The notes below the pieces were generated by a model. That model saw nothing but the letters and a program-made list of their open reading frames with translations, was not told the origin of the DNA and searched no databases. 29,550 nt of DNA from a virus. Positions 3,059 through 29,550 of this stretch are shown here, one piece after another (the first letter of the stretch is position 1; each line of letters opens with the position of its first letter). The translations under genes and the position numbers were made by a program. The stretch is from IMG/VR virus record IMGVR_UViG_3300048593_000309, positions 1-29,550 of that record; one strand, given 5' to 3'.

Positions 3059-3210
3059 TTCGACTCCTTATTCTTCCGGTTCCGTGTCCAGTAACTGACC
3101 GCATAGTTTTTAACCTTCTTAGCCGCTTTGTGAATTTCTCCAGCCTCTTTCTTGCTGATGCTGTACACTCCGGTGCCGCCTTTGATAATGCTCTGTATTC
3201 TGTCGCTCAT
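3055..3210 (-). CDS. Small basic protein, 51 aa
   Basis: I start at ATG 3210 (MSDRIQSIIKGGTGVYSISK), which overlaps the thyX stop as ATGA and follows GAGGAGG. The in-frame extension to 3342 runs inside thyX and is Arg-rich shadow sequence. The product is very basic (KKVKNYAVSYWTRNRKNKESK at its end). That might suit nucleic-acid binding, but no domain is recognisable. It is the first gene of the small-gene run after thyX. Confidence 0.6.
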   Translation of the reverse strand: MSDRIQSIIKGGTGVYSISKKEAGEIHKAAKKVKNYAVSYWTRNRKNKESK

Positions 3211-4371: not shown

Positions 4372-5166
4372 TTAGTTTTCGGATTTATTCAAGACCCACT
4401 TAGGGCATGAAAGGGTTTGTGTCGCTGTTGGATAGGCTGGCCAACTGTCCAGTGCGCGGCATTCGTGCAGCGTCGAGATTGCTTTGCGTCGCAGATTCGC
4501 ACCAGCCTGAAGCCATTCGGCATCCAACTTGTAAATGGCGACGGCGTATGGCGCTTTGCGTTCGACCGCTACAAAGACGAAGGCATCAGCGCCAGTCATC
4601 TCCAGATAGTGCGCGGCCTGAATGTGATAGCCGAACGATGCGATGGTTCGCAGGAAGGCTTCGGGCGATGCGTCGTCGGTCGTTTTGATGTCAACGAGCG
4701 TATGACCCTCGATCCACAGATCGGGACGTGCCTTGAGAGCAATGCCGGTTTCTTCGTCCTGAGCGAACACGCTGGCTTCGATCCTATGCGGCAGATGAAT
4801 GATGTCCCAGAACGGATGGCGACGGACAGAGTTGGCCACTCCTTGCACATCAATGTCTTCAGCGTGAGTCAGGTGGATGCGGCTCTTGTGCTGCTCCTTC
4901 CACGCTTTGCCTTCCTTAGTACGTCCATCGATGTCCGGCGGAACGACAGCGACGACTTGCGAGTAGAGTTGCGGTTCCAATACAGCGGTATGAATCGCCG
5001 TACCCATCTGCATGGCCTTGCTCGGCTCCTGATGCTCCTCCAGCGCGGCTTTGTAGTGAGCCGGAGACTTGAGGATCTTGGACATCATCGACTTAGAGAG
5101 AGCGTCAACGGCGTGATATTTCTCCGCTGGCATGTCGAGGTTGACGAATTGATTGAGAATGCTCAT
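4372..5166 (-). CDS. RecE-like PD-(D/E)XK exonuclease (DUF3799 type)
   Basis: Expected to degrade the 5' strand of double-stranded DNA and hand 3' tails to the annealing protein. Visible motifs: a conserved N-terminal GTAIHTAVLEP (residues 55-65), RIEASVF with a candidate metal Glu (130), KARPDLW with Asp 149, LVDIKTTDDA with the core D-x-K (159-161), and QAAHY (183-187), the Q-x-x-x-Y helix of RecB-type nucleases. The 264-residue length suits the RecE C-terminal nuclease domain alone. The start ATG 5166 overlaps the upstream stop as ATGA, so it is coupled to the RecT-like gene. Confident at family level. Confidence 0.88.
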   Translation of the reverse strand: MSILNQFVNLDMPAEKYHAVDALSKSMMSKILKSPAHYKAALEEHQEPSKAMQMGTAIHTAVLEPQLYSQVVAVVPPDIDGRTKEGKAWKEQHKSRIHLTHAEDIDVQGVANSVRRHPFWDIIHLPHRIEASVFAQDEETGIALKARPDLWIEGHTLVDIKTTDDASPEAFLRTIASFGYHIQAAHYLEMTGADAFVFVAVERKAPYAVAIYKLDAEWLQAGANLRRKAISTLHECRALDSWPAYPTATQTLSCPKWVLNKSEN

Positions 5167-5969
5167 TCGGTGGGCGGGTTAGCGAACGCCTTAGCCTTGG
5201 AGATGAAGCTGTCAGGATCGGCGACGATCATGTTGGCCACCTTGGTGGATACATCGCGGAAGTTCTGGCCTTCCTTGATCAAGTTCTTGCTGACGAGGAA
5301 CGCATTCGCGATATCAGAATGTGGCTCAAGAATCTGCTCTAATTTCTCAACGAGCGAGAAGGCCGGTTCCGGCGTCACGTTGACCGTCTGGCGCGTCGTA
5401 GCGGTGATGGTGGGTGTTGACGGCGCAGCAAAATCAGCAGCCTCCTCCGGGGTATAGACGCCAGCAACAACTTCAGGTGCGAGCATTCGAATAGCCTTGG
5501 AGATGCAGCGCGCACGAAGCATAGCTGCCGGATCTTTCTGCCATCCAGAACCAGCCTTGGCGGGAAGCAGTCCTGCGATTTTGGCATCCTCGGTCGTAAA
5601 TCCGATTTCGCATTCGTTGCCGTCGAATTTCCAGACTCCGATAGCAGCAGTCGAATCGAACTGCTTCCAAATGACCTTACCGCCCCGAGTCCGATATCCA
5701 GCGAGCATGGCGTCTGAGCGCATCGTCAACGAGCCGTTGACCAGATGAAACTCTCGCTTGAAGTCGAACGGAGTTTTGCGAGTGGCTAGGCATTCAAGGG
5801 CGATCATGTTGCCTTGCTCGTCCTTCTGACAGTTGAAGACTCCGCTTCGCGCAATCCACGATCCGAGTTCCTTGACCGCTTCAAGCGATGTTCCGATGCG
5901 GGAGTAAAACTCTCCGTCAGGACTGACTGGCGGTTGCGGTTGCGTTGTTGCTAATAGGTTGCTGCTCAT
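5163..5969 (-). CDS. RecT-like single-strand annealing protein
   Basis: A 268-residue protein whose centre has the RecT-type pattern. DAMLAGYRTRGGKVIWK (86-102) and EIGFTTEDAKIAGLL (121-135) are followed by AAMLRARCISKAIRMLAPE and GVYTPEEAAD (148-179), the family's conserved helix and the motif after it. Proteins of this type form rings on single-stranded DNA and anneal complementary strands, working with the neighbouring nuclease. The N-terminal 20 residues are Pro/Gln-rich and probably disordered. The ATG at 5969 lies 53 nt inside the HTH gene, in a different frame. The call rests on motif and neighbour. Confidence 0.8.
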   Translation of the reverse strand: MSSNLLATTQPQPPVSPDGEFYSRIGTSLEAVKELGSWIARSGVFNCQKDEQGNMIALECLATRKTPFDFKREFHLVNGSLTMRSDAMLAGYRTRGGKVIWKQFDSTAAIGVWKFDGNECEIGFTTEDAKIAGLLPAKAGSGWQKDPAAMLRARCISKAIRMLAPEVVAGVYTPEEAADFAAPSTPTITATTRQTVNVTPEPAFSLVEKLEQILEPHSDIANAFLVSKNLIKEGQNFRDVSTKVANMIVADPDSFISKAKAFANPPTE

Positions 5970-13859: not shown

Positions 13860-15098
13860 ATGGCTTGTCCCAATGTCTTCAACGCCTTCGCCGTAGCGAC
13901 TGAGTCGCTCGCGCAGGACGTCTATAAACGCGCCTCGTATCGCTCGATGTGGCTCAATATGATTGAGCGCGGCGAGTATCCTCAAGGTACTGGTTTGACC
14001 CAGACCTCGTTCAACACGACCAGCATCGAGCCGACTTCGGCTGAGGAGTGGTCGGCCATTACGCTGGCGAGCGGCTCCAACGGCGGCGCTTGCGATGTCA
14101 CCTACAGCGAGGTTCCGGTTGGTTTTAATTCCGTTACATGGAGTCCTGAGCGTTTCGCGCTCAAGGGTCCGCTCTTGTGTAAGGATGACCTGACCTTCGA
14201 TCATCGCGTCGAGGCGTTCTTGCGCGTGTACTTGGAGAAGCTCTCGATCCGCGCTCAGCGTTCATGGGAGACTCGCTATCAGAATACGTTCGCGAAGTTC
14301 GCGATCAAGGCTGTGGCCGACTCGTCCTTTACTCAGGTCGAGACGATTCCCTCTGGCGTGAATGAGTTCCCGTGGATTCAGACCGGATCGGCTGGTCAGG
14401 CGCTCAATCAGTCTACCTCTGAGTTGACTCAAGAGATGCTCGATGTCGCGGCTGCTACGCTGATCCGTAACGGTGCGACGAATCCTGATAGCTCCGGTTT
14501 CATCTCGTACAGCAGCGATGGTCCGGTATTTCCGCTATACATCGGCTTGGAGGCTTCGCAGCGTATCGCTCAGAACAACCCTGCGTTCCGCGAGGATCTG
14601 CGTCAGGCTGATATGGGCAGTGGCAGCGGTGCGGAGTTGCTCAAGCGCATCGGTGCGAACCGGGTGATTAAGAACTATCGCCATGTGCCGAATCTGTTCC
14701 CGCCCCGCTTCACCTATGCCGGTGGCAAGTACACGCTGGTCCAGCCCTTCACTAGTGGTGCCGGAACCAATGGTACTGTGTTCAGCGTCAATTCGAGCTG
14801 GACGACCGCTCCGTACGAGGCCGCGTTCATCGTGACTCCGTATGTGTTCAAGAGCCACATCGTGCGGCCCGTGAATCGGGTTGGCGATCTGAGCTGGATG
14901 CCGACCAACTACATGGGCGAGTGGCAGTGGGTGACTGGTGCCTACAAGCTCGATGTGGATTGTGCCGATCCGCTGGAGAAGAAGGGTCAGCATTACGCTG
15001 AGTTCGTTCATGCTTCGGAGCCAGTATTCACAAACCAAGGAATGACGATCATCTTCCGCCGCTGCACCGGCGCGCTGACTCAGATCATCTGCTCGTAA
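13860..15098 (+). CDS. Probable major capsid protein, 412 aa
   Basis: The size, composition and position suit a major capsid protein. It is mixed alpha/beta, lacks a signal peptide or membrane segments, and is flanked by a terminator and small virion genes. Notable stretches are TESLAQDVYKRASYRSMW, VTWSPERFALKGPLLCKDDL, RAQRSWETRYQN (typical of an E-loop/spine-helix region), SSDGPVFPLYIGLEASQRIA and YEAAFIVTPYVFKSHIV. The family of these uncultured podovirus-like phages is only weakly recognised. It is the sole large gene in the plus structural block and ends before two terminators. The capsid assignment is inference from size, place and composition. ATG 13860 lacks a SD. Confidence 0.7.
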   Translation: MACPNVFNAFAVATESLAQDVYKRASYRSMWLNMIERGEYPQGTGLTQTSFNTTSIEPTSAEEWSAITLASGSNGGACDVTYSEVPVGFNSVTWSPERFALKGPLLCKDDLTFDHRVEAFLRVYLEKLSIRAQRSWETRYQNTFAKFAIKAVADSSFTQVETIPSGVNEFPWIQTGSAGQALNQSTSELTQEMLDVAAATLIRNGATNPDSSGFISYSSDGPVFPLYIGLEASQRIAQNNPAFREDLRQADMGSGSGAELLKRIGANRVIKNYRHVPNLFPPRFTYAGGKYTLVQPFTSGAGTNGTVFSVNSSWTTAPYEAAFIVTPYVFKSHIVRPVNRVGDLSWMPTNYMGEWQWVTGAYKLDVDCADPLEKKGQHYAEFVHASEPVFTNQGMTIIFRRCTGALTQIICS

Positions 15099-16304: not shown

Positions 16305-17318
16305 ATGTCAAAGCAAACCATCAATATCGGCGCATCGCCGAACGACGGAACGGGGACGCCGCTGCGGACCTCGTTCGATTATACCAACCAGAACTTCACT
16401 GAGATATACACCGCTCTTGGCGGTGGTGTCGCCCTTCCCGGTGCGACGACTCAGGTCATCTTCAATGATGGCGGAACGAATCTGGCAGGCGATGCCGGTC
16501 TGGTTTACAACAAGACAACCGATGCGCTGACCGTTGCCGGACTCGTTACCGCTGGCTCCGCCACCATCACCGGCGCACTGACGGTGGACACCACGACGCT
16601 GGTGGTTGATGCGACGAATGATCGGGTGGGTTTTAAGACCGCTTCTCCTGCTGATATTGTTGAGGTTGTCGGATCTGGATCTACTGGAATCCGAGTCAGC
16701 CGATCTGGCGCTTTGACGCAATACGCGACACTTTCCGCTGGAGCGACAGGTCCGACGCTTGATGCGTCATCCGCTCTTAGTTCGCTTAGTTTTGGAATTG
16801 CAGGCACCACCGCCGTGACGATTAACTCCACCGGCAATCTTGTTTTAAAAGGTGGAACCGCTGGAGCCAGTGGCGTTGGTGTCACATTCCCAGCCGCTCA
16901 AATCGTTTCGTCCGATGCAAACTGTCTCGACGATTACGAGGAGGGGACTTGGACAGGGACGTTGGCCGGACTTACTACAAGCCCAACCGTTGCTGTAACC
17001 ACAACTGGACGATATACCAAGATTGGAAGAGAAGTTAAAGTAAGCATTTACTTCCAAGGTGTTAGCACAGTTGGAGCAAGTGGAATTATAAGGATTACCG
17101 GTTTGCCATTCACATCTGCAAACGATGGAGTTGGTAGCATCGGGACGTTTTCTACGGATTTAGCGGCAACTTTTACTGGTTATGTTGTTGCTGCACTTGG
17201 AGGAAATTCAACCATTATTGAGTTTGCTTCTAGTCAATCAAATGGAGCCGGTGGATTTGCAACTCATAACGCCGGATTAAATCGTTATGTTGCTGCAACC
17301 TTAACGTACAACGTCTAA
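16305..17318 (+). CDS. Tail-fibre-like virion protein, 337 aa
   Basis: The start INIGASPNDGTGTPLRTSFD then YTNQNFTEIYTALGGG is a known N-terminal module of phage fibre-type proteins. A beta-repeat shaft follows (ATITGALTVDTTTLVVDATN, rich in T, A, G, V). The C-terminal 130 residues start with LDDYEEGTWTGTL and hold GRYTKIGREVKVSIYFQG, a conserved C-terminal fibre domain that probably contacts the host surface. By eye the last 350 bases are richer in A/T than the shaft, in line with domain exchange. It is probably a receptor-binding or side-fibre protein. Confidence 0.8.
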   Translation: MSKQTINIGASPNDGTGTPLRTSFDYTNQNFTEIYTALGGGVALPGATTQVIFNDGGTNLAGDAGLVYNKTTDALTVAGLVTAGSATITGALTVDTTTLVVDATNDRVGFKTASPADIVEVVGSGSTGIRVSRSGALTQYATLSAGATGPTLDASSALSSLSFGIAGTTAVTINSTGNLVLKGGTAGASGVGVTFPAAQIVSSDANCLDDYEEGTWTGTLAGLTTSPTVAVTTTGRYTKIGREVKVSIYFQGVSTVGASGIIRITGLPFTSANDGVGSIGTFSTDLAATFTGYVVAALGGNSTIIEFASSQSNGAGGFATHNAGLNRYVAATLTYNV

Positions 17319-18921: not shown

Positions 18922-18953
18922 ATCCCCCAGCGGTAACAAAAACCACCGGGGGA
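18922..18953. terminator. Terminator between converging blocks
   Basis: ATCCCCC (18922-18928) pairs with GGGGGAT (18947-18953), with partial pairs inside (GCGGT/ACCAC). On the minus strand the hairpin is followed by TTTTGCTTT, so it likely ends the leftward transcript of the scaffold gene. On the plus strand there is no T-run. Confidence 0.65.
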
Positions 18954-18974
18954 TAATTACTTCTACGCGTAAGG

Positions 18975-20156
18975 TTAGCGTCCTAACGACTTCAGGACGT
19001 TCGTGACGAAGTCCTCGCTCTTCGAACCATTCGCATTTGATGCACGGGAGCCGCCAGCCGTTGCTTTCGAGCTAACACCGGGTTCACTGCCTCGATACTT
19101 CGCTAGTTCGGCTTGCAAGCGCTTGTTTACCTCGACCTGAGAGTAGAGAAGCTCACGGTATTTCGGCGCGGCAGCGGCCCACAGAGCGGCCTTCGCGAGG
19201 TCTTCTTCGCTGTTCTCGCCATTGAAGATCTGCTGCGCGAGGCTAAGTCGGCCAGTTAGTTCCGTATTCCATTCGTCGTCGTTCTCACGCGGCTCAAAGA
19301 TTTCCAGAGCGCGAGCATTCTCGCTGACCTTTGTCCAAGTCTTATTGGCCGACTCCAATGCAGCGCGAGTGCCTTCCTCGTTGTCCTGCTGGTACTTCGA
19401 AATGATCGAGTCGTAATCGGACTTCGCCTCTGACATCTCCGCAGACTTCTCGCCGTTAATCTCGTCGTACTTGACGATCAGAGCGCCAAGCTTCGCCTTC
19501 TTAGAGGGCGAAAGACCCTCAACGATGTCGTCGATCTGCGAGTTCCGATAATCGTTCTCAGGCGACTTGAGCAGGCCAACAAGCCTGTCGCCATCCGTGC
19601 CAACGACAGATTTCATCGAGTCGAACACGCCGGTAATCTTGCCTTCGTACTTTTTGACAAAGTTGGGATGGCGCTCAATGTCGAGGAGTCGAACACGTTC
19701 GGAAAGCGTGTCGCGTTCTTCCTGCAAAGTCTTGAGTTGAGCTTCGAAGTTCGGATTGGCAACCTTGCCAGACTTCATCTCTTCAAGCTGCTTGGCCAAC
19801 TGCGCCTTCTCTTCCTTGATCTTGCGGAAAGCATCAGCGGCTTTCGTGGATTTGATGGACTCAGGGATGCCAGAGTCATCAGTAGCCGAGGATTCCTCGG
19901 TAGCTGGAGCCTTCTCCTTCGGACTGAACATCCGCTCGATATCCATCTCAGACTTGCTGAGCTTGGTGTTCGCGTCGGATTTAGGCTGCGTTTGCTTCTT
20001 TTGCTTAGGCTCCTCGGTTACTTGCGAAGCTTTTGCACTAGCCTCTCCAGCGGCAGCATCCTCAAGAGTGTTAGCCTTGAAAGATTCGATGAAGGAGCTT
20101 TCGAAATCAGGCGTTTGCGCGGAGTTAACGGTCGGTGAGTTCAGTGGTTCTTCCAT
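18975..20156 (-). CDS. Probable scaffolding protein, 393 aa
   Basis: The sequence is acidic and Ser/Glu/Lys-rich with a disordered N-terminal 100 residues (AEASAKAS-type). Long helices follow: AFRKIKEEKAQLAKQLEEMK and LKTLQEERDTLSERVRLLDI, a coiled coil, at about residues 110-160. The C-terminus has KYRELLYSQVEVNKRLQAEL and a final basic helix (EDFVTNVLKSLGR), as in scaffolds that bind the capsid with a helical C-terminus. No protease domain is seen. It is at the end of the portal-led transcript. The scaffold role is inferred from composition, coiled coil and position. ATG 20156 has no SD. Confidence 0.65.
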   Translation of the reverse strand: MEEPLNSPTVNSAQTPDFESSFIESFKANTLEDAAAGEASAKASQVTEEPKQKKQTQPKSDANTKLSKSEMDIERMFSPKEKAPATEESSATDDSGIPESIKSTKAADAFRKIKEEKAQLAKQLEEMKSGKVANPNFEAQLKTLQEERDTLSERVRLLDIERHPNFVKKYEGKITGVFDSMKSVVGTDGDRLVGLLKSPENDYRNSQIDDIVEGLSPSKKAKLGALIVKYDEINGEKSAEMSEAKSDYDSIISKYQQDNEEGTRAALESANKTWTKVSENARALEIFEPRENDDEWNTELTGRLSLAQQIFNGENSEEDLAKAALWAAAAPKYRELLYSQVEVNKRLQAELAKYRGSEPGVSSKATAGGSRASNANGSKSEDFVTNVLKSLGR

Positions 20157-20162
20157 AAAATG

Positions 20163-20495
20163 TTAGTATTGTTTTTCAAATGTTGCTTCAGGTTCTCTCG
20201 TTGTGTCGGTTACTGCAAGTTTTCGAATGTTTTCGAGGCAATGAGCGTAGCCAGCGGTTACACCAGCAGCGAAAACAATGTCCGATTCCTTGCTTCCTTG
20301 GGAGGGCATAGGCACCGGCATCGACTCAGCCACGATGCGTAAAGCCATCCGAAGAATCGGATTTCGTAAAATAAGCGCAAGTTCGCCCTGTTGGCCAGCC
20401 GTTGTCCATTCGAGAATGTCTACCTCAGGCAAGTCCATCAGGCTTTTCGCCATCTCCTTGCGGTTCTTCGTCGAGCCTCTTAGCCAGTTCATCAT
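20163..20495 (-). CDS. Hypothetical protein, 110 aa
   Basis: ATG 20495 (MMNWLRGSTKNRKEMAKSLM) lies 71 nt inside the GH130-like gene in another frame; ATG 20453 (MAKSLMDLPEVDILEW) is an alternative start. The middle is helical (ELALILRNPILRMALRIVAE), and VFAAGVTAGYAHCLENIRKL near the end is also helical. The protein resembles small phage helper proteins that precede scaffold genes, but no family is recognised. The stop is 6 nt from the scaffold start. Confidence 0.6.
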   Translation of the reverse strand: MMNWLRGSTKNRKEMAKSLMDLPEVDILEWTTAGQQGELALILRNPILRMALRIVAESMPVPMPSQGSKESDIVFAAGVTAGYAHCLENIRKLAVTDTTREPEATFEKQY

Positions 20496-21780
20496 ACTTT
20501 GATTTCTTGTTTCGTTTTAGTTTATGTCTCTGCGGAATTGGATCGAGAACTTCGTCGAGTTTGATCGGGTTCTCTTTGTTGACGACGTCACGCTTGGGTC
20601 GAATCACCTTCGTCACCTCAAGCAAGTCGGCCAACGGAATCTTGATGTAACCACAGTCCACATCGTTGATGCCGTACGAGACGACAAACTTATTCTTTGC
20701 GGTATCGAAGAATGCGCCGCACGGGAATACGACCGCAGGCAATCCCGGCCACCAATCTTGCTGATTCGTTCCAGTCAGAAGCGGCAGCGTCGTCATGCGA
20801 ACGATGCGGAAAGGCGGCTTCGCTTCGAAAGCGTAGGCACCCATGTAGTAGCGGCGCTTCTTGTTGATCCACGGCAGCGAACTGTGGAAGAAGGTCCAGT
20901 ACAGGCCGTCGCATAGGATCGGATTGGAGCCTCCGCGCACCTCGCCAAACTTCCAGAGCGGATTGAACTCGTCGGTGACGTATTCCTCCTCCTTCTCTAA
21001 ACGCCCATTAAGGCGTACAACGACGTGTGGGTTGGCCGAATACACCATGTGTGGCGCATTATCGTGGACGAAGTAGAGCCAGTTCTTCTCATGCCCATCG
21101 TTGATCATGGCCTGCGCGTAGTTGTTGCCGTAGATCATGTCGAAACGGCCTACGTTCAGGAAATGCTTGTCCAGAAGGAACATTCCTTGGTGCGCGTAAC
21201 TCTTGAACGGGACGAATGTGCAGCACGCAAGCCCGTACTTGTCGCCGAATTTTAGGACGCGAGGGTCTTCGAATTGTTCGAGGGGGTAGTGGGAGATTAA
21301 CTGGGTCAAAGACTTCTTTGTGGCGCGAAGATCCTGACTCAGTTCGAAGATGACGATGTCGTTCTTCTCGATGTAGACATCCTCGTCCTTCTCGCGCTTG
21401 TTACGGCAGCGACGGGCGAAAAGCATGATTCGACCATCTGGTTCGAGCATGATTGCCGGGTTGAAGTAGTACGTCCCCGTTTCCTGCGGCAGGACGATTT
21501 TGCCAGTCTCCCAATCGGTTTGTTCACTCAGCTTGGGGACGTCATTTTTTGCGTAGCTCATTAGAAACTCGGCAGCGAATTTGACTTCATCGTAGAGAGC
21601 GAGCCAATGATCGCGCTCCTCGCGGACCTCGGTCAAATGCTCGTCATGTTCTTTGGTTCGAATCTCAAGCGTTTTGCGAAGGTCTTCGATTTCCTGAAGA
21701 AGATCCGCCGGACCATCGCCGCCCGTTGCAAATCGTTTGAGAGCTTTGAGGGACAGACTTCGGATTATGTCTTTCATCAT
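20425..21780 (-). CDS. GH130-like beta-propeller glycoside phosphorylase/hydrolase-type protein, 451 aa
   Basis: An N-terminal coiled coil (residues about 25-62) precedes a body with the GH130 signs. FNPAIMLEPDGRIMLFARR (106-123) and FEDPRVLKFGDKYGLACCTF (170-189, EDPR motif) are followed by EVRGGSNPILCDGLYWTFFH and VVFPCGAFFDTAKNKFVVSY. GH130 enzymes are five-bladed propellers that phosphorolyse or hydrolyse beta-mannosides. The tail is Lys/Pro-rich. It overlaps the GT25 gene by ATGA. The substrate is unknown and catalytic residues are not assigned, so it may act on or merely bind glycans. I am confident of the fold family, less so of activity. Confidence 0.75.
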   Translation of the reverse strand: MMKDIIRSLSLKALKRFATGGDGPADLLQEIEDLRKTLEIRTKEHDEHLTEVREERDHWLALYDEVKFAAEFLMSYAKNDVPKLSEQTDWETGKIVLPQETGTYYFNPAIMLEPDGRIMLFARRCRNKREKDEDVYIEKNDIVIFELSQDLRATKKSLTQLISHYPLEQFEDPRVLKFGDKYGLACCTFVPFKSYAHQGMFLLDKHFLNVGRFDMIYGNNYAQAMINDGHEKNWLYFVHDNAPHMVYSANPHVVVRLNGRLEKEEEYVTDEFNPLWKFGEVRGGSNPILCDGLYWTFFHSSLPWINKKRRYYMGAYAFEAKPPFRIVRMTTLPLLTGTNQQDWWPGLPAVVFPCGAFFDTAKNKFVVSYGINDVDCGYIKIPLADLLEVTKVIRPKRDVVNKENPIKLDEVLDPIPQRHKLKRNKKSKYDELAKRLDEEPQGDGEKPDGLA

Positions 21781-22406
21781 GGATACAAGTTTGTGTTCTC
21801 CTGCGTAGCTAACCTTGGAAGAACCCCGTAGAAGTTCATCCTTGGCATTGAATCGACCAGCATCTGGATGTCGATTGGTGCCCAGACCTTTTGATTCGTT
21901 TCGAGGAGCTTACAAACGCCCTCGTAATTTACAAGATATGCGTGGGTACACATGCCTCTCACTAGTTTGTAGAGGTTTGATGCGATGTAACCGTGATCTT
22001 CGATGGGGTCGGTGCAGCAACTTCCGAGGTAGACGACGTGCCAATCATTCGGAAGGAACTGAAGGTTGTCATTGGCCTTTGCTTTCCAGTTCTCGTCAAG
22101 AAACTCAACGTCATCCTCGACGATCAAGAAGGTGCGATGATCGGTTACCTTCGATTCAACCATCCACTTGATGGCCGACCAGACGGAGAAGTGACTAAGT
22201 CCGGCGACGATGGTCTTGCACTTCGCCTTCTCCTTCTCGCGAGTGTGATAGTAGTCGGTTGAAATGCCGCAGTTATGCGAACGAAAGCCGTAAATCGGAA
22301 CCGCATCAATTCCGAACGACTTCATGTATCTGATGCACCGCTTCTCCTTTTCGCCCTCAGGTTTTGAGACAATGAAGGTCGGTGTATTCTCGAAATCAAC
22401 TTTCAT
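21777..22406 (-). CDS. GT25-family glycosyltransferase, 209 aa
   Basis: I start at ATG 22406 (MKVDFENTPTFIVSKPEGEK), in an ATGA overlap with the methyltransferase gene; a longer frame to 22451 is rejected. GT25 signs are the N-terminal VSKPEGEKEKRCIRYMKSFG, YHTREKEKAKCKTIVAG and LSHFSVWSAIKWMVES. They are followed by FLIVEDDVEFLDENWKAKAN, the EDD metal motif, and HVVYLGSCC. It resembles LPS-type glycosyltransferases that add sugars from nucleotide donors. It is a paralogue of the gene at 22998. The acceptor is unknown. No membrane segment, so cytoplasmic. Confidence 0.85.
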   Translation of the reverse strand: MKVDFENTPTFIVSKPEGEKEKRCIRYMKSFGIDAVPIYGFRSHNCGISTDYYHTREKEKAKCKTIVAGLSHFSVWSAIKWMVESKVTDHRTFLIVEDDVEFLDENWKAKANDNLQFLPNDWHVVYLGSCCTDPIEDHGYIASNLYKLVRGMCTHAYLVNYEGVCKLLETNQKVWAPIDIQMLVDSMPRMNFYGVLPRLATQENTNLYP

Positions 22407-22993
22407 CGGTTTGGAAGGATGTAGATGATGCCACGTCGCGCACCTGTGCATCGGCTCGGATGATTGTAGTAGTAGCTATAGCCATAACGCTGAGTTAAAG
22501 TTTTAGCCCTATAAATAGCGTCTAGCTTCTCTTTAACGTATCCAAAACATATTTCATGTTCTTTGTAAGCGTCGTACCCAAGTTGTCCGGTGGGTTCTTT
22601 GAAGTCGTGGATTGCGATGACTGGATGAATATCGAACCGATTGATTGCCTCAAGCTCTTCGAGAAGCGGCAGATAGTCGTTCCAATGCGCGTCGAGGAAG
22701 AAGATTGTGTCGTGTCCAACGCCGTGATGCGGGATGAACCAGTTCATGCAGGCATCGCTGCTACCTTCGAACATCTCGACGTAGACGTTCTCGCGCTTAA
22801 ACCGTTCCTTCGCCTTCTCAACCCGATCATTGTCGAGTTCGCAGGAAACCGTCTTCAGGAAGTTCTTGGCCAACCAGATGGTCGTATCACCTTCGTGCGT
22901 TCCTGTTTCGACCGCAGTCGTCAGCTCGAAGCGTTCCTTGAGGTAAAGAAACTCCTGCTCAATGAATGTGTCTCCGTTGAATGGTGAACCCAT
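22403..22993 (-). CDS. Class I SAM-dependent methyltransferase-like protein, 196 aa
   Basis: Residues about 26-42 (TAVETGTHEGDTTIWLAKNF) look like a class I SAM-binding motif (E-T-G-T-x-x-G-x-T). CELDNDRVEKAKERFKREN is the acidic loop and helix after strand 2. HDTIFFLDAHWNDYLPLLEE fits strand 4 with its Asp. AIHDFKEPTG is strand 5. Such proteins often methylate sugars in glycan loci. It overlaps the downstream GT25 gene by ATGA. Substrate unknown. ATG 22993 has an A/T-rich leader without a SD. Confidence 0.75.
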   Translation of the reverse strand: MGSPFNGDTFIEQEFLYLKERFELTTAVETGTHEGDTTIWLAKNFLKTVSCELDNDRVEKAKERFKRENVYVEMFEGSSDACMNWFIPHHGVGHDTIFFLDAHWNDYLPLLEELEAINRFDIHPVIAIHDFKEPTGQLGYDAYKEHEICFGYVKEKLDAIYRAKTLTQRYGYSYYYNHPSRCTGARRGIIYILPNR

Positions 22994-22997
22994 AGTT

Positions 22998-23600
22998 TTA
23001 GTCGGCTAAATTCATTCCCTCTTGATCGGCGACACGCGGGAAAATTGTGAAGCAGTTGAGGTGATGCTTGCTGTTGAAATACATCTGCAAATCAATCGGA
23101 GCGTAAATTTTCTCGTTCGTCTCGATTAACGTCTTCAGCGCCTTCTTTCGGACAACGTAGCAGTGGGTGCAGAGCGGCATCCCCTCGAACAGATTGGAAT
23201 CATACTCACGGCTAATCTTGCCGTGAACGCAGCATGAGCCGGGATAGAGCAAATCCCAATTCTCAGGAAGCTTGGTTAGAGCGCGTTCAACCGTCTCGCG
23301 CCAGTTCGGCCTGAACAAGATGTCATCCTCAAGCACCATGACCATCTCAGGAGTGTTTGGATCAAACTCTAGGGCGTTCCAGAGCATCCAATGCGACATC
23401 GTGCATCCGACATGCTTGTGGCAGATTGTGTATCCAGAGCCGGGGTTATCGACCTCGTACGGAATGCTGGCCTTTAGCCCAGACTTCTTCCCATCAAGAC
23501 CATAGAAAATCCGATAGCTATTGATTCCAGCGGATTCAAGGTTTTCTTTTAAGCGCGGGATGCGAGAAGAACCTCGCACCGTGATAACGACCGTTTCCAC
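22998..23600 (-). CDS. GT25-family glycosyltransferase, 200 aa
   Basis: Start GTG 23600. The N-terminus METVVITVRGSSRIPRLKEN, then YRIFYGLDGKKSG and GCTMSHWMLWNALEFD are typical GT25 features. VMVLEDDILFRPNWRETVER carries the EDD motif, and WDLLYPGSCCVHGKISREY follows. The C-terminal CTHCYVVRKKALKTLIETNE and PIDLQMYFNS match its paralogue at 21777. It should transfer a sugar to a glycan. It is 4 nt from the methyltransferase gene downstream. Confidence 0.85.
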   Translation of the reverse strand: METVVITVRGSSRIPRLKENLESAGINSYRIFYGLDGKKSGLKASIPYEVDNPGSGYTICHKHVGCTMSHWMLWNALEFDPNTPEMVMVLEDDILFRPNWRETVERALTKLPENWDLLYPGSCCVHGKISREYDSNLFEGMPLCTHCYVVRKKALKTLIETNEKIYAPIDLQMYFNSKHHLNCFTIFPRVADQEGMNLAD

Positions 23601-23604
23601 GGGG

Positions 23605-24222
23605 TTACTTTAACTTTCGATAGATGGCAAATACGCTCTCGTTAAGGTCAAATCGCGAGATAAATTCGCAACGCTTGAGGACAAACTTGATGGCTGTCTG
23701 AGTTGAATCCCAGTTCACATCGTCCATGACCAGATAGCCGCCAACCTTTAGCTTTGGGAGCCAGTTGACGACATCGCTCGTAGACGGCCATTCGGCGTGA
23801 TTGGCATCGATGTGAACCATGTCCATGTCCGGCAGAAATCGTGAAGCGTCCCACGAAGACATGCGGCAGAACTGAATATTCTTCACGACTCCAGCGCGAA
23901 CTGTGTGCCCAACAAAAGCCTCGTAGTGCCTGTCCAGATCAAGCGTAGCCCACCACTCTTGATTCGCAGTAGACTCGTCATCGATACAGTCCTCTTTCTT
24001 CCAAGAGTCGATGGCGTAAACGGTTCCGCTTCCGTTGAGCTTGCATGCGTAGGCTAGAGCAAGCGTTGACTTGCCTTCAAAAACACCTACTTCAGCAATC
24101 CTTTGAGGCTTTGATTCGAGGACAAGCTTGGCAATTTCAAGCCCCTTTTTCGGATCGCACCATCCTCCCATTTTAGGGAACTGATCGGCGATGAATTGAG
24201 CGACATTTTGTTCGTTTTCCAT
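23605..24222 (-). CDS. Class I SAM-dependent methyltransferase (Methyltransf_24 type), 205 aa
   Basis: RIAEVGVFEGKSTLALAYAC (residues about 41-60) is the SAM-binding motif I. It is followed by TVYAIDSWKKEDC, the acidic end of strand 2. MDMVHIDANHAEWPSTSDVV and LPKLKVGGYLVMDDVNWDS fit strands 4 and 5, as in sugar or small-molecule O-methyltransferases. It precedes the GT25 gene by 4 nt and follows the portal by 3 nt, so one operon. The substrate is not known. The last part (FELNE-like, SRFDLNESVFAIYRKLK) closes the fold. Confidence 0.8.
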   Translation of the reverse strand: MENEQNVAQFIADQFPKMGGWCDPKKGLEIAKLVLESKPQRIAEVGVFEGKSTLALAYACKLNGSGTVYAIDSWKKEDCIDDESTANQEWWATLDLDRHYEAFVGHTVRAGVVKNIQFCRMSSWDASRFLPDMDMVHIDANHAEWPSTSDVVNWLPKLKVGGYLVMDDVNWDSTQTAIKFVLKRCEFISRFDLNESVFAIYRKLK

Positions 24223-24225
24223 ATT

Positions 24226-26475
24226 TTATCCCTGACGCGACAAGTTGGATTCCGCAGTTGCATTCGCACGCTGAATATCAGCGGTTGTCTTCGCATTCCG
24301 GCGTGACAAATCTGCCATCGCCTTCGTGTTCTGACGCTGAATGTTGGCCATAGTCTCGGCGTTCTGGCGAGCGATTTTCGCCTGAACCTCCGCGTTCATC
24401 ACGGCTGTACGAGGATCGGAGCCTTGCTGAATTGCCTGAGCCTGCTGCTGCTGCGCCATCGCTTGCTGCTGCTCTTGGAGCATCTGACCAAGCTGCTCAA
24501 CGGTCTGCCCGAGCATTCCAAGCTGCTGGACGTACGCATCGACCTGCTGCTTGCGCGACGGATCGGTTGCGAGGCGCTGGATGTGCTGCTGAACATGCTG
24601 ACCAATACCCTGCATGAAGAGCATGATTTCCTCTGGGTTACCGCCACCTTGAAGCGATGACGCTGCTTCGTTCGCCGCGCCAAGGTGAGTCTCGATGTGG
24701 ATGATCTGATTCTGCGTGTCGGTGACGAGCGGCATGTTGCCCTGACGCAGTGAGGCATGCTCCAGAACAGCCAGAGCGGCTTGATCCTGCGTACGAGACG
24801 ACTGGAGCTGAGAGGGCAGATAACGATCCACCATCTGTTGGCCAACCTGTGCGGCAATATAGTCCTTGAGCAGGTTAATTTTGCCGCCCTCTGGAAGCGA
24901 ACCGGACAACTGGAGAAGCGAACCGAGAAGCTGTTGCTTAGCAAACTGAGAACCTTGGCCCACAGTCCTAGTCGCCTCAACGTAGTCGATGTCGATCATT
25001 GCCTGCACCGGAACGCCGCGCTCTTTGCATCGACGCTGGAACTCGATGGCGTCCTTATCGGACTTCGTAATCGGGTTCAGATTAGGATTCGAAGCGCGGT
25101 TGTACCGTTCCTCAAAGAAGGAATCGAGCTGAGTGTAATACCGGCTCAACTGCGTCTTACCGATTGCGGACTGCTGTGAGACGATGGCTTGGACTTCCGT
25201 CGCTGTCCGTGGGTTGCCCTGCGGCTTGTTGAGCGATTGGCGATACTGAGAGAGATTGCCTTGAAGAACATTTTCAAGGTCCGCATTGACCGCCATTGGA
25301 GCATCCAGAACTCCAGCAATATTCTGCTGAACGACTTCGTAATCTGGCGGAAGAATGGCATACGGTCCTTGCTGTACGACGCTTGTCTTGCTCAGCGCAT
25401 TGGCGTTCAGGGGTCGGAATAGGATCTGAGTCCTCGCAAACGCGCTGTCTACCATTGAGCAGCGAAGACGATTCTTTAGCTCCATCGGCTGAAGCATCTT
25501 GATGCCTAAGCCCTTAACGCCGTGATGCTCGCCGTCGCCACGGTCGTAGTACATCGGATGAATGACCTGCTCCCACCGGCTGAACCGGCGAAGCTTGCGA
25601 TACATAAAGCTCTCGCTGTCGCGCTCATCGATGATTACATGGCTGATCTGGCCATCGAATTCCTTGTAGAAAACGTGGCACATCAACACGACCTCGGAAC
25701 GTGCGCTGAACGTGATGTCGTTCGAGCGAAGCTGCTTCTGGAAGAACTCCCAGTCGTACTGAACGCCAGAACGATACGGCTCAGGCATCGCCGCACGAAT
25801 GCGCTGACGGACATAATCGACATCCCAACCGGAAGCTTTTGCCGCCTTTTCGTCTTGGATCTTCTCGAACAGATCATCCACGCCCATGCGCGTACGGACG
25901 CAAGCTACCTTCCAGTCGCTCACGTTTGACTTAGTGCCGTCTGGGACGAGCAGGTCCGTCGCCATGATGGCTTTGCAGCGCCAGTTGGTGTTGTCCTCAA
26001 AGATCAGCGGACCATCGCCAATGAGAACCATCTCACGCTGCGAGAGCTGCATAATGTAGTCGAAGTCCTTGTCGAGCTTCTGGAGCCGGTCAAACTCTTC
26101 CGTGATAATCTTCGACCATTCCTCCCGCTTATCCATGTCATTACCGTACGCGGTACGAATGTTCGTGTAGGTCGGAACCTCGGCGAACACGTCGTAGAAG
26201 GCGGACATCGCCAGCGTGAGGAACGCTTCCGACTCACGAAAGTTGACGTTGGTGCGGAACGCTTGGTTGTTGCGACGCAGTTCTGCTGGATTGTACGGAG
26301 GATTTCCATCGACCAGACCGCGCAGCTTGGCTCGCGTACTATTACGCAGCTCATCAGCCATGATAAGCTTCTGAAAGATTTCGCGAGCGGATGCCGCGTC
26401 GGCTATGCGCGTTTCAGGCGCTTTGCCGTCTTCGTTGATAGTTTCAAGCGGCAGTTGGGCTAGGTTTCCGTACAT
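24226..26475 (-). CDS. Portal (head-tail connector) protein, 749 aa
   Basis: Long, mostly helical protein next to the large terminase, the normal portal place. Podovirus-type connector signs include MYYDRGDGEHHGVKGLGIKM, KPQGNPRTATEVQAIVSQQS and SFFEERYNRASNPNLNPIT. The dodecameric portal forms the DNA entry ring and binds the terminase. The C-terminal part is Gln-rich and then has four 11-residue repeats (702-745, core R-x-N-x-x-x-x-A-D/N-I/L), a hendecad coiled coil that may build a barrel. The length is long for a portal, close to P22-type portals. It overlaps the Cys-rich gene by 16 nt. Confidence 0.85.
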   Translation of the reverse strand: MYGNLAQLPLETINEDGKAPETRIADAASAREIFQKLIMADELRNSTRAKLRGLVDGNPPYNPAELRRNNQAFRTNVNFRESEAFLTLAMSAFYDVFAEVPTYTNIRTAYGNDMDKREEWSKIITEEFDRLQKLDKDFDYIMQLSQREMVLIGDGPLIFEDNTNWRCKAIMATDLLVPDGTKSNVSDWKVACVRTRMGVDDLFEKIQDEKAAKASGWDVDYVRQRIRAAMPEPYRSGVQYDWEFFQKQLRSNDITFSARSEVVLMCHVFYKEFDGQISHVIIDERDSESFMYRKLRRFSRWEQVIHPMYYDRGDGEHHGVKGLGIKMLQPMELKNRLRCSMVDSAFARTQILFRPLNANALSKTSVVQQGPYAILPPDYEVVQQNIAGVLDAPMAVNADLENVLQGNLSQYRQSLNKPQGNPRTATEVQAIVSQQSAIGKTQLSRYYTQLDSFFEERYNRASNPNLNPITKSDKDAIEFQRRCKERGVPVQAMIDIDYVEATRTVGQGSQFAKQQLLGSLLQLSGSLPEGGKINLLKDYIAAQVGQQMVDRYLPSQLQSSRTQDQAALAVLEHASLRQGNMPLVTDTQNQIIHIETHLGAANEAASSLQGGGNPEEIMLFMQGIGQHVQQHIQRLATDPSRKQQVDAYVQQLGMLGQTVEQLGQMLQEQQQAMAQQQQAQAIQQGSDPRTAVMNAEVQAKIARQNAETMANIQRQNTKAMADLSRRNAKTTADIQRANATAESNLSRQG

Positions 26476-27089
26476 GGTCGTTTTTTCCAGCAGTGAGCCG
26501 GAAGGTTTTCGTTCTCTGTAGCGTCCGAGAATTTATGAAGGGTTTCAATGGGAAACCAAACCATGCTTCTGATAAAGCAACCGCAAAACTCGCAGCTTTG
26601 CAGGCTTTCGTCTACCGGAGTGCTGCCGTGTTGAGAGAAAGTTTTGACAGCATCCTTTAGCACACGGGCGTTGCATCCGGTGCATCCAAGTGGTTTTCGA
26701 TTGTAAACGCAGGTCGAGCAGATGCTTGCGCGCCTATTCGCCTCCGCCTGATCAACCTTACCGCCGCCAACCGTAAGTCCGTGGAGAAGACTCATGCTGA
26801 ATCGGATGACGTCTCCGATCTGAAGCGATTTACGTCCCTCTGGCTTGGGAACATTAACTTCGTTGTAAGAGCAATCGGCACCGTTACGACACGCATATTC
26901 GGTGATTAAATCGTCAAGGTTGCTCGGGATTTGAATCGCGTTTGCCGTGTAGTGATTGCGAACAAACTCATGGAGCTGCGCCCACGATCCTCCGGGTACT
27001 TCAATGCCAGTCTCGGGAATGCGGTAATGCCATCCGCCGGGGATGACCATGTGTTCGTTCAGAACTTTGTAACCAGTGGTTTTGCTCAT
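26460..27089 (-). CDS. Cys-rich zinc-ribbon-like protein, 209 aa
   Basis: It carries CSTCVYNRKPLGCTGC (Cys 124, 127, 136, 139), a C-x2-C-x8-C-x2-C zinc-ribbon pattern. A further CEFCGC (166, 169, 171) and two Cys near the C-terminus (200, 206) follow. The N-terminal half is not recognised (GWHYRIPETGIEVPGGSW). It sits between the large terminase and the portal, with overlaps to both, so a role in packaging or portal assembly is possible but not shown. No known family is assigned. The ATG 27089 overlaps the terminase stop by ATGA. Confidence 0.7.
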   Translation of the reverse strand: MSKTTGYKVLNEHMVIPGGWHYRIPETGIEVPGGSWAQLHEFVRNHYTANAIQIPSNLDDLITEYACRNGADCSYNEVNVPKPEGRKSLQIGDVIRFSMSLLHGLTVGGGKVDQAEANRRASICSTCVYNRKPLGCTGCNARVLKDAVKTFSQHGSTPVDESLQSCEFCGCFIRSMVWFPIETLHKFSDATENENLPAHCWKKRPCTET

Positions 27090-28786
27090 GCTTCAATCGT
27101 TTCGTCGTAGTAAATTGAATCTGCGTCCTTCACTAGCTTTTCCCAGACCTTATCCATCTTCGTAAAGCGCGGCTCTAAAACAGCAGTTTTGCGCACCAGA
27201 TCAAGCAAGACTACAGCAGCGTCGGCCAAATCAGGCGATTTTCCTGTCCGTTGCTTCATCACGGTCTTGGATTCGACCGATATCTTCCGCTTGGAATCAT
27301 CGAACATACGGGCGCAGAACTCCTGCAACGTCTCGATATCCATGCCTCCAAGGCGCTCTTCAACGGCCCATTTACGCATCGAGAACCAGAGTTCCGTTAC
27401 CTTTCTATCGTAAGCCTCATTGCATGGCCTACTGTCCTCGTCGCTGACGGGAATGGTTGATGGCGAGCCACCGAACTCGACGCGATGAATTACACCCCAT
27501 TCGCGAGTCAAGATGTCGGCCAATCCACCGCCTTCACCGCTTGAATCCAGACCAAATTTGTCCGGTGGAACGCCGCGCTTGTTGCATTCTTCTTTGACCC
27601 GATTGGCTATCTGGTAATGCACCGGCTCCGTTAACTGAGCGTTGACGGATATGTGGATGATGTCTTGAAAAAGTATGCTGACCTTGTCGTTTGCGGTGCC
27701 AACTTTGGCAAAGCGAAGGATACATCTGTCGCCGCCAAAGCCCGGATCAAGACCGGCAACGATTTGAACATTGGTCGTAAACACCAAACTTTTTGTAGGT
27801 GTGTGCGTCTCAATCAGCGATTCGGACAGAACCGTCTTGACCATGCCGTCCGGCGACCAGAATCCGCGTGTGTACTTCCAAAACGTAGGGCTTTGCTCGC
27901 CCTCATGCCGCATAGCCGACAAGACCTGATCCTGAGTAATGAGGTACGGATACTTCGTGCGGCCCTCGCTGATGTTGGGCGACTTCATGCCGTCAAAGCG
28001 TCGGCACATCCCGCGTTCTGTTAGCCAATGCTGATCTTCAATCGTTACACTGCGCCAGCCTTTTGCCGGTGTGCAGAAGCGTCCGTGCGGATCAAACTTT
28101 GAGGCGGGGTTTCCGATGACCAACATCTTAAACTCGCGGCAACCCTTAGAAAGGTTCGTACACGCTTCGAAAGCCGCTTCAGGCGTATCCGTAGCTTCGT
28201 CGATAATAACCATCACACGCTCGGCGTGGATGCCCTGAATGTTGGCCACAGCCTTTGATGTGTTGCCCTCGGCGACGGCGATAGCGGAAATGGAGTGTCG
28301 GTCGTCGCCTTTGATGGCTTGAAGACTCATCTTCGAATCGACCATGTTTCCGGGGAATCCGCGTGATTTTCGAACAAGATCCTGAAGATTGGCCCACATA
28401 CGCTTTCGGATCATCTTTGCCGTTGTAGACGTGAGAACAACGGTTGTCTTGGAAGGGTTGGCCAACCACCAAACAGTCGCAAAGAGCGTCGCGCCGAAAG
28501 TCTTTCCGCTCGCGCCGCAACCTGCCCATCCGACGTAGTCGTGTTCGCAAAGACCTTCGACTTGTGCTTCGAGCCACGGGTTCCAGCTCATCTTCGGCCA
28601 TAACATTTTCGTGGCGTTACGAAAATGATCGAAAGTACCTAGTCCGCCCTCATTCGGTTGGAGCCGATTTCTGAATGCGTAGAGTTCCAGTTCTAGGTCT
28701 GGAATCTTGACGGGCGAACGAATCCCGTACTTGTGGTCGATCAATGGATGCTCTGACACTTGCTCTGGCATAGTTTGGCCTTGCAT
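27086..28786 (-). CDS. terL: Terminase large subunit (ATPase-nuclease)
   Basis: It drives DNA packaging into the prohead. Walker A is GCGASGKT (residues 89-96 counting from ATG 28786), Walker B with catalytic Glu is VMVIIDEA (191-198), and a coupling-type motif is LVIGNPAS. The RNaseH-like nuclease begins at AGLDPGFGGDR (Asp 347), continues with FGLDSSGEGGG, and ends near SPDLADAAVVLL. The order and length (566 aa) match phage terminases. The start could also be ATG 28771 (MPEQVSEH); a TTG at 28837 is unlikely because it would overlap the divergent fibre gene. It leads the leftward structural transcript. Confidence 0.95.
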   Translation of the reverse strand: MQGQTMPEQVSEHPLIDHKYGIRSPVKIPDLELELYAFRNRLQPNEGGLGTFDHFRNATKMLWPKMSWNPWLEAQVEGLCEHDYVGWAGCGASGKTFGATLFATVWWLANPSKTTVVLTSTTAKMIRKRMWANLQDLVRKSRGFPGNMVDSKMSLQAIKGDDRHSISAIAVAEGNTSKAVANIQGIHAERVMVIIDEATDTPEAAFEACTNLSKGCREFKMLVIGNPASKFDPHGRFCTPAKGWRSVTIEDQHWLTERGMCRRFDGMKSPNISEGRTKYPYLITQDQVLSAMRHEGEQSPTFWKYTRGFWSPDGMVKTVLSESLIETHTPTKSLVFTTNVQIVAGLDPGFGGDRCILRFAKVGTANDKVSILFQDIIHISVNAQLTEPVHYQIANRVKEECNKRGVPPDKFGLDSSGEGGGLADILTREWGVIHRVEFGGSPSTIPVSDEDSRPCNEAYDRKVTELWFSMRKWAVEERLGGMDIETLQEFCARMFDDSKRKISVESKTVMKQRTGKSPDLADAAVVLLDLVRKTAVLEPRFTKMDKVWEKLVKDADSIYYDETIEA

Positions 28787-28825
28787 TAGTTCTCGCTGGA
28801 CTTGACGGTCTGGCAAAGGAAAAAT

Positions 28826-29550
28826 ATGCCGTCGCAACTTGTTTCTTCAACCGGCTGTTGCCAGCCTTGCGATACCGTTCCGGTTGTCGTGAACGTCCCC
28901 GGACCACAGGGTGCTGCGGGTACTAACGGAACAAACGGCGCGAACGGGGAAAATGCGTTCTCGTATACGACCGCGTCGTTTGTAGTTCCGACGTTTGGAG
29001 CATCGGTTGTCGTTGCGGTTGCGAACACTTCGTTTCTTCCAGAGTCGGTTGCTGGACAATTTTTTGTATCGGTTCAGGGATGCGGCTACTTGCAGGTTAC
29101 ATCGGTAGACGGCTTGCTGGTAACCCTACAAAACCCACTTGCAGGCGTTCTCGGAATCCCAAATGCGATTCCTACGACGGTGATTCCTATTGGTTCACTT
29201 ATCACGCTGTCGGGTGCAATTGGCGCTACGGGTGCGGCAGGAGCGTCTGGCGGAGCATCCTCCGCAGCGACGTACATTGTTCGAACTCCCGACGCATCGG
29301 TTCCGAGCGCAACGGCGCTCAATTCATTTTCATCTGGCTATCTCAAGACCCAAGGGTCGAGCGGATCTGGTTTTCTATCGACCGTCGCAACGGTTCCTGT
29401 CGGCGATATTAGCGGCGTGTTGCCGGTCGCAAACGGTGGAACGAACCTATCGACCGTACCTACCAATGGCCAACTGCTCATTGGCAACGGAACGGGATAC
29501 ACGCTGGCAAGTCTGACCGCAGGCTCGAATATCACGATTACGCCGGGTGC
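28826..29550 (+). CDS. Collagen-like tail-fibre protein, partial (3' end outside the window)
   Basis: ATG 28826 has AAAGGAAA 5-12 nt upstream, and the frame stays open to the window end (241 codons). The N-terminus (MPSQLVSSTGCCQPCDTVPV) contains three Cys. It is followed by a collagen-like run of G-x-x repeats (VPGPQGAAGTNGTNGANGEN, about residues 28-47), then a beta-rich body (FVVPTFGASVVVAVANTS). A second short run is GAIGATGAAGASGGASS. The later DISGVLPVANGGTNLSTVP is a typical fibre-shaft motif. It likely is a long fibre or neck appendage protein. It is divergent from terL with a gap of about 40 bases. Confidence 0.8.
   Translation, partial: MPSQLVSSTGCCQPCDTVPVVVNVPGPQGAAGTNGTNGANGENAFSYTTASFVVPTFGASVVVAVANTSFLPESVAGQFFVSVQGCGYLQVTSVDGLLVTLQNPLAGVLGIPNAIPTTVIPIGSLITLSGAIGATGAAGASGGASSAATYIVRTPDASVPSATALNSFSSGYLKTQGSSGSGFLSTVATVPVGDISGVLPVANGGTNLSTVPTNGQLLIGNGTGYTLASLTAGSNITITPG

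Follow-up and report, generated by a model that had tools for sequence, protein, structure and literature searches.

A variable glycosyltransferase and methyltransferase cassette is exchanged beside a constant GH130-like gene in tailed phages known from metagenomes

The viral DNA analyzed here is the IMG/VR record IMGVR_UViG_3300048593_000309, a stretch of 29,550 bases that is referred to in full as the window. On its minus strand, a row of genes runs from the terminase large subunit through genes of 209 and 749 amino acids (aa), two methyltransferase and two glycosyltransferase genes (in the order MTa, GTa, MTb, GTb) and a gene for a GH130-like protein (GH) to genes of 110 and 393 aa. The original prediction, made from the letters of the window, had described MTa to GH as a five-gene glycan cassette, and all five open reading frames (ORFs) were confirmed on the minus strand at the coordinates listed below. 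A feature that it had not described is the allelic exchange of the glycan cassette between related phages, next to the GH130-like gene, which stays constant. The genes and features of the row are:

27086..28837, minus strand: terminase large subunit (PHROG_2, 1.4e-23), which begins the co-directional gene row
24226..26475, minus strand: 749-aa gene, 'portal' by position only, the upstream homology arm, with 161 relatives in viral contigs
21785..24223, minus strand: exchangeable segment from portal stop to GH start, with high-identity alignment breaking at both ends
23605..24222, minus strand: MTa, class I S-adenosylmethionine-dependent O-methyltransferase of the Methyltransf_24 type, with which the exchangeable cassette begins
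22998..23600, minus strand: GTa, GT25 glycosyltransferase with EDD and PID motifs
22403..22993, minus strand: MTb, probable class I methyltransferase with weak profile matches
21777..22406, minus strand: GTb, second and distantly related GT25, with ATGA overlaps at both ends
20425..21780, minus strand: GH130-like five-bladed-propeller protein, constant gene of the locus
20163..20495, minus strand: 110-aa gene between GH and 'scaffold', overlapping the GH end and conserved with the backbone
18975..20156, minus strand: 393-aa gene, 'scaffold' by position only, without significant match in Pfam, PHROGs or NCBIfam

The close packing that had been predicted, with gaps or overlaps of 3–4 nucleotides (nt), was recovered at every junction: MTa starts 3 nt after the portal stop, gaps of 4 nt separate MTa from GTa and GTa from MTb, and ATGA overlaps join MTb to GTb and GTb to GH. 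Given the overlap with MTb, the start of GTb was set at 22406, the listed ORF start being 22451. The predicted placement between portal and scaffold genes held as far as the arrangement goes, the cassette being co-directional and tightly spaced after the terminase and the 'portal', while the two names were given because of the gene order after the terminase large subunit and nothing else. Neither gene had a significant profile match, and the 749-aa gene gave no significant match in Pfam, PHROGs, NCBIfam or a PDB sequence search, nor in a comparison by hhalign with one 'head to tail connecting protein'.

The family assignments of the original prediction (two GT25 glycosyltransferases, two class I methyltransferases and a GH130-like propeller) could be followed for most of the cassette. 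MTa (Pfam PF13578, Methyltransf_24: 9.6e-20, 71.9 bits vs. a cut-off of 26.3; PDB match to the O-methyltransferase 3cbg, 7.4e-5) and GTa (PF01755, Glyco_transf_25: 5.6e-14, 52.9 bits vs. 24) scored well above the Pfam cut-offs, GTb fell just below (PF01755: 1.9e-4, 21.8 bits vs. 24; PHROG_2835, 1.3e-6), and an alignment showed the EDD and PID motifs to be kept in both GTa and GTb. A profile built from the cassette GT25s and their relatives (including rows from the phages Che8 and AP3) matched the viral glycosyltransferase R655 (8.4e-17) as well as procollagen galactosyltransferase and chains named GT25 (2.5e-15) in the PDB. MTb was the exception, as its best Pfam match (Methyltransf_25, 0.0032, 18.6 bits) lies under the cut-off of 27, its PHROG match (PHROG_22502, methyltransferase) reaches 0.008, and the PDB search gave nothing below E 0.6; since these matches are weak and under the cut-off, we treat it as a probable, not a certain, methyltransferase.

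Relatives of the locus were collected by scanning viral contigs for portal (161) and GH (137) homologs, the best 80 of each being kept, and distant members of the clade are therefore outside the sample. The 158 portal- or GH-centred loci contained 138 with both ends, of which 71 were distinct sequences, and 120 in which portal and GH are almost complete, which gave 64 distinct rows for trees; distinct sequences were used because portal- and GH-centred loci often share one contig. Cassettes of the 71 distinct loci were typed by tblastn, while the figures for allele sharing between pairs, for links to the tail fibre and for the presence of GH come from earlier ORF-based labels, in which GT32-MT11-MT24a-GT25c5 is merged as one type. 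The labels GT32, GT7, GT4, GT2 and GT108 are those that we take to correspond to the Pfam or PDB names.

The synteny search proposed with the original prediction found the portal-GT25-methyltransferase-GH set in 71/71 distinct loci spanning portal to GH. Between portal stop and GH start, these loci hold ten different combinations of GT25, GT32-like, GT7-like and methyltransferase genes, with 2–5 such genes per cassette. The type of the window, MT24a-GT25a-MTb-GT25b, is found in 26 loci, followed by GT32-MT11-MT24a-GT25c5 (17), GT32-MT11-GT25c7-MT24c (8), GT7-MTb-GT25b (8), GT32-GT25c7-MT24c (4), MT24a-GT25a (4) and four further arrangements with one locus each; genes of the MTa kind occur in 49 of the 71. 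Among nine allele representatives searched against Pfam, matches were obtained to Gly_transf_sug (GT32-like; 5.1e-13, 5.2e-10), Glyco_transf_25 (2e-24, 2.3e-12, 7.6e-10), Methyltransf_24 (4e-17) and Methyltransf_11 (5e-8, 2.4e-7), together with a weak one to Glyco_transf_7C that lies below the cut-off (2.8e-4). In 58/58 portal contigs that extend 4.6 kb or more beyond the portal, the GH gene was present, and 11 of the remaining 22 show it before the contig ends.

The borders of the variable segment were located by aligning to the window 12 loci hand-picked for close backbones, three of them with the same allele throughout and nine with a different one. In all nine different-allele loci, an identity of 90–97% stops at window positions 24219–24224, next to the portal stop codon (24226–24228), and in eight of them high identity restarts at 21777–21784, around the GH start (21780). 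The ninth (L013) gave a single alignment from 22999 at 83%, because its allele shares MTb-GTb with the window. In L096, L008 and L028 an alignment of 71–79% remains over MTa, which in the first two continues into GTa, and L022 aligns over MTb-GTb at 66%. From the terminase to the scaffold, the cassette is the sole hypervariable stretch in the variability profile.

The distribution of alleles over the backbones was read from the 64-row trees. The portal tree, with nine labels, requires 27 allele changes, against a minimum of 8 and a mean of 36.5 after shuffling (0/200 shuffles came as low), and the GH tree 25; the alleles follow descent in part and are swapped frequently. The same allele was carried by 52% of the 44 pairs at 97–98% portal identity and by 8 of the 11 pairs at ≥ 98%, and three metagenomes yielded two alleles each (the number in the contig name being taken as the metagenome sample). 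The locus is a serotype-like exchangeable cassette, i.e., a variable block between constant genes that is swapped between similar backbones.

The two GT25 genes of the window had been regarded as paralogues that arose by local duplication, and a recent tandem copy found no support. GTa and GTb are 36% identical over 140 aa, and in the GT25 tree GTa clusters with GT25s of other alleles (c5 and c13, support 97) while GTb sits alone on its own long branch, the two sets joining with a support of 83 that is flagged for long branches. Moreover, each GT25 travels with its own methyltransferase, as MTa-GTa is found alone in 4/71 loci and MTb-GTb without GTa in 10/71. An old duplication may lie behind the pair. 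Median pairwise ratios of nonsynonymous to synonymous substitutions (dN/dS), calculated within rows of the window type (20–23 per gene, pairs with dS 0.1–1.2), were 0.050 for MTa, 0.069 for GTa, 0.047 for MTb, 0.090 for GTb and 0.088 for GH, compared with 0.042 for the terminase, 0.058 for the portal, 0.075 for the 209-aa gene, 0.126 for the scaffold and 0.193 for the 110-aa gene. These values suggest purifying selection on the five cassette genes, close to that on portal and terminase, and would fit working enzymes.

The constant GH130-like protein matches PF04041 (3.7e-11, 43 bits vs. a cut-off of 26), and its core (aa 62–410), modelled from 26 sequences with a pLDDT of 81 and a pTM of 0.83, is a propeller for which the Foldseek comparison suggested with the original prediction returned GH130 phosphorylases as the best PDB matches (5b0p, 2.0e-11), so that profile, model and PDB matches all place it in the GH130 fold. 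Lower in the same results stood the mannoside synthase 9erg (1.0e-9) and GDP-mannose-dependent mannosyltransferases of Leishmania (6q4z, 2.4e-8), which we take to be GT108 enzymes. Alignment with VIA-align gave Z 27.4 with 5ay9 (root-mean-square deviation 2.9 over 281 residues) and Z 21.6 with 6q4z (3.5 over 275), and sequence identity to the PDB was at most 19% among the 50 matches listed. The first ~85 residues, helical and coiled-coil-like, are not shared by distant members and are particular to the clade of the window, and the C-terminal tail is charged.

Across 13 GH sequences from three phage groups, the residues D172 P173 R174, K232 N233 W234, H299 S300, F352 P353, G370 and N372 D373, among others, are invariant. 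The EDPR-type motif (E171-D172-P173-R174) aligns with the EDPR of 7fip, and D172, invariant also in 20 close sequences, corresponds to the Asp that we presume to be catalytic in GH130 enzymes. Lin0857 carries two EDPR-type motifs, and its two alignments to the window protein disagree on which is the counterpart. At the phosphate site of GH130 phosphorylases H299 is kept, while GRV of Lin0857 is GEV in the window protein. Fold and EDPR-type motif are thus those of GH130 mannoside phosphorylases and the Leishmania mannosyltransferases, from both of which the phage subfamily differs in keeping the KNW and HSS residues across three phage groups; the protein looks enzymatic. According to their PDB titles, the known GH130 enzymes act on mannosides. 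When three GH members were used as tblastn queries against GenBank phage records, one weak match was obtained in total (E 9e-3), and the structure matches among viral proteins included some from uncultured phages and giant viruses, some of the latter being named glycan enzymes (e.g., a LicD-type protein and a fucosyltransferase).

Two further phage groups carry GH130-like genes. A GT25 query led to larger phages (contigs of 44–124 kb; L227–L235, some of them near-copies) in which a GT25 lies within ~5 kb of a GH130-like gene in 9/9 loci, the GH130-like genes being 34–41% identical in the best piece, while the 134-kb contig L237, found with a GH query, carries consecutive GH, GT25, GT32-like and MT11-like genes. 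Fusions of a GT4-type (Glycos_transf_1) and a second, GH130-like domain are encoded at L231:3092-5530, L232:3622-5676 and L234:744-2798, with the GH130 match above the Pfam cut-off in L231 only. A single ORF at L227:6380-7657 fuses Methyltransf_24 to GT25, in the order of MTa-GTa in the window, and adjoins a GT7-like gene 62% identical to the GT7 of the GT7-MTb-GT25b allele. The third group (L243–L262) is lambda-like, with terminase, portal and capsid families seen in L252, where the GH130-like gene (under the Pfam cut-off here, over it in L262) stands between the capsid gene and a head-tail attachment gene. Read by eye, the ORF order in this group places portal- and capsid-type genes before GH in 7/7 loci listed and an attachment-type ORF after it in 5/7.

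Outside the row, the window holds four further features:

18922..18954, minus strand: terminator-like hairpin of 13 pairs, directly after the last gene of the row
16305-17318, plus strand: tail-fibre-like gene (PHROG_677, 2.8e-10) whose start is conserved and whose end varies greatly
5163..5969, minus strand: RecT-like annealing protein (PF03837, 3.2e-5, 24.0 bits, at the cut-off)
4372..5166, minus strand: PDDEXK-type protein (DUF3799; PF12684, 9.8e-29) adjoining RecT, a candidate exonuclease

The RecT-like and PDDEXK-type proteins (4372-5969) probably form a phage recombination pair. The hairpin past the last gene (18954-18922) is the longest GC-rich terminator-like one of the window, and a second, of 10 pairs, lies within the 209-aa gene (26603-26581); terminator-like sites are no commoner than in shuffled sequence (11 vs. 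a mean of 12.6), and promoter-like sites number 3 vs. 6.1 in shuffles. A 412-aa gene on the plus strand (13860-15098), and thus opposite in direction to the portal row, is well conserved in the genomes profiled and gave no significant match to PHROGs, NCBIfam or PDB sequences; it could encode the major capsid protein. A ThyX-type thymidylate synthase is encoded at 3207-3854 (Thy1, 5.5e-45). One relative, L074, lies on a contig of 92,531 bases, roughly double the length seen in its relatives. The 'portal' of the window had no match in 50,697 GenBank phage records, and the phage group is known from metagenome contigs only. In a bacterial genome collection, the GH gene was found in a single contig (4.8 kb) of an uncultured Nitrosomonadales bin, which is too weak a basis for naming a host; a search of 398 genomes of the phylum of that bin gave three matches, the bin itself included.

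Several known systems resemble the locus in part. Excerpts of PMC12363180 describe Che8 gp110 and Corndog gp38 as essential for viral capsid glycosylation and capsid and tail-tube sugars as shielding particles from antibodies, and virion sugars find further support in those of PMC11256854 and PMC12619734. Like the window cassette, the Che8 island combines a GT25 (gp110) with Methyltransf_24 (fused to GT2 in gp108), adding GT2 (weak in gp109) in three genes that overlap by 4 nt; unlike it, the island lies near the right genome end. No GH130 match was obtained in gp108–gp110, nor anywhere in the Che8 genome by tblastn with the window GH. As far as excerpts of the literature describe it, chlorovirus PBCV-1 likewise builds its capsid glycans with virus-coded glycosyltransferases, and its variants differ in glycans. 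PBCV-1 differs in being a eukaryotic virus. Its glycans are N-linked, and its variants arise by mutation, not by cassette exchange. Constant flanks around a variable glycosyltransferase block exchanged by recombination are known from bacterial O-antigen and capsule loci and from phage gtr seroconversion, from which the window cassette differs in lying within a row of head-type phage genes; the five cassette genes, to which this search was limited, include neither a flippase nor a polymerase. The locus was not reported in the literature searched at title and abstract level, a scope outside which most subscription journals lie.

We consider it fairly probable (about 60%) that the locus is an interchangeable glycan-building cassette within a series of late, head-type genes in a group of tailed phages. 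As the original prediction had proposed, the best reading is that sugars would be made or remodelled late, on the virion or on host glycan, and the most likely product would be a methylated virion glycan, because of the comparison with Che8, the place among head-type genes and the enzyme fusions. The cassette enzymes would be produced late, alongside head proteins; GT25 and its partner transferases would use host nucleotide-sugars to glycosylate a virion protein, and the methyltransferases would cap or alter these sugars. The constant GH130-like enzyme would carry out a step common to all alleles, in which a mannose-type core sugar is added, moved or trimmed. The fixed flanks would allow homologous recombination, perhaps through the RecT-like and PDDEXK-type proteins that the phage itself encodes, to swap glycan types, which would amount to a phage 'serotype' system. 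A fuller version remains tentative and, in our estimate, well short of even odds: at least ten exchangeable cassettes among the head genes of free-living phages would be swapped through phage recombination and kept diverse under balancing selection by readers of virion sugars (host defences, grazers, decoy glycans), and a new phage GH130-fold family would be the shared transferase starting or linking every glycan.

A number of observations weigh against the glycan-building cassette. The names portal and scaffold are putative. Of the nine different alleles, five retain a cassette gene in common with the window (66–83%), and exchange is therefore partly modular (gene pairs), not always of the whole block. 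Other regions of these genomes are as variable as the cassette, among them the tail-fibre region, the early region and a stretch at 35.5–40 kb of the reference map. The link to Che8 is weak at the sequence level, with 28% identity of the cassette GT25s to gp110 over 67 and 112 aa around the EDD region and an E value of 0.093 between MTa and gp108. GT25 is also named by Pfam as a family of lipopolysaccharide (LPS) biosynthesis, and in Burkholderia phage AP3, the best GenBank-phage match of two cassette GT25s, the gene is placed as morons are, after tail genes near a regulator. Ten neighbours checked in the larger phages included clamp loader, tail-lysozyme-like and tail-fibre-like genes and no portal. 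In the lambda-like group no GT25 or GT2 match was found in 10/10 records (only these glycosyltransferase families were tested, and the records could be incomplete), so the GH protein might act alone.

The Pfam name of GT25 and its moron-like place in AP3, together with the mannoside use of known GH130 enzymes, would suit a late re-decoration of host LPS, capsule or another surface glycan that acts against superinfection or progeny loss on debris, with alleles following host glycans. If so, cassette and host choice could be linked. A comparison of cassette and fibre variants in 41 rows found similar fibre ends (> 0.5) in 2/47 different-cassette and 2/26 same-cassette pairs at ≥ 93% portal identity, too few for an association; different cassettes were seen in none of the pairs whose fibre ends are > 0.8 alike, which leaves room for such a link. 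In 15 pairs at > 95% portal identity the cassette was the same and the fibre ends differed, which speaks against the host-surface reading. The tight coupling of the cassette to the 'portal' gene and its neighbours, and the lack of any membrane protein family among the five genes searched by Pfam, also count against a host-surface role, the main competing reading, which we regard as possible, if rather unlikely.

That the GH130-like protein is instead a virion-bound carbohydrate-binding or degrading protein, with the transferases as loosely linked cargo, seems doubtful. Its place between capsid and head-tail attachment genes in a lambda-like phage, with no GT25 or GT2 match in the ten records of that group, and its own coiled-coil-like N-terminus in the window clade would agree with this, as opposed to its unbroken pairing with GT25 and methyltransferase genes in the portal-to-GH loci, the nearby GT25 in all nine larger-phage loci, the three GT4 fusions and the glycan-synthesis names of some giant-virus matches. 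Glycosylation of phage DNA bases against restriction is very improbable. DNA-modifying phage glycosyltransferases exist, according to excerpts of PMC12619734. Among PHROGs, MTa matches best a family named DNA methyltransferase, whereas its Pfam family, Methyltransf_24, is of an O-methyltransferase type and counts against this reading. Genes of the thymidylate-synthase family (PF00303), the usual source of hydroxymethylated bases, were found in none of the 12 long contigs of the group (5/12 with end repeats; other routes of base modification were not searched), and this candidate was set aside.

Mycobacteriophages are known to carry sugars on their particles, which have been discussed as shields from animal antibodies (excerpts of PMC12363180, PMC11256854 and PMC12619734). 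Matching machinery is found here in a phage group known from metagenomes and in unrelated larger phages, and the first of these exchanges its alleles as bacterial serotype loci do. With it comes a family of phage GH130-fold enzymes that is barely visible to tblastn in GenBank phage records. If the virion is the target, the question becomes what reads phage sugars in nature without antibodies, and backbones at 97–99% portal identity that differ in their cassette offer a natural comparison. If true, these phages would carry interchangeable sugar coats on their particles, as in bacterial serotype switching.

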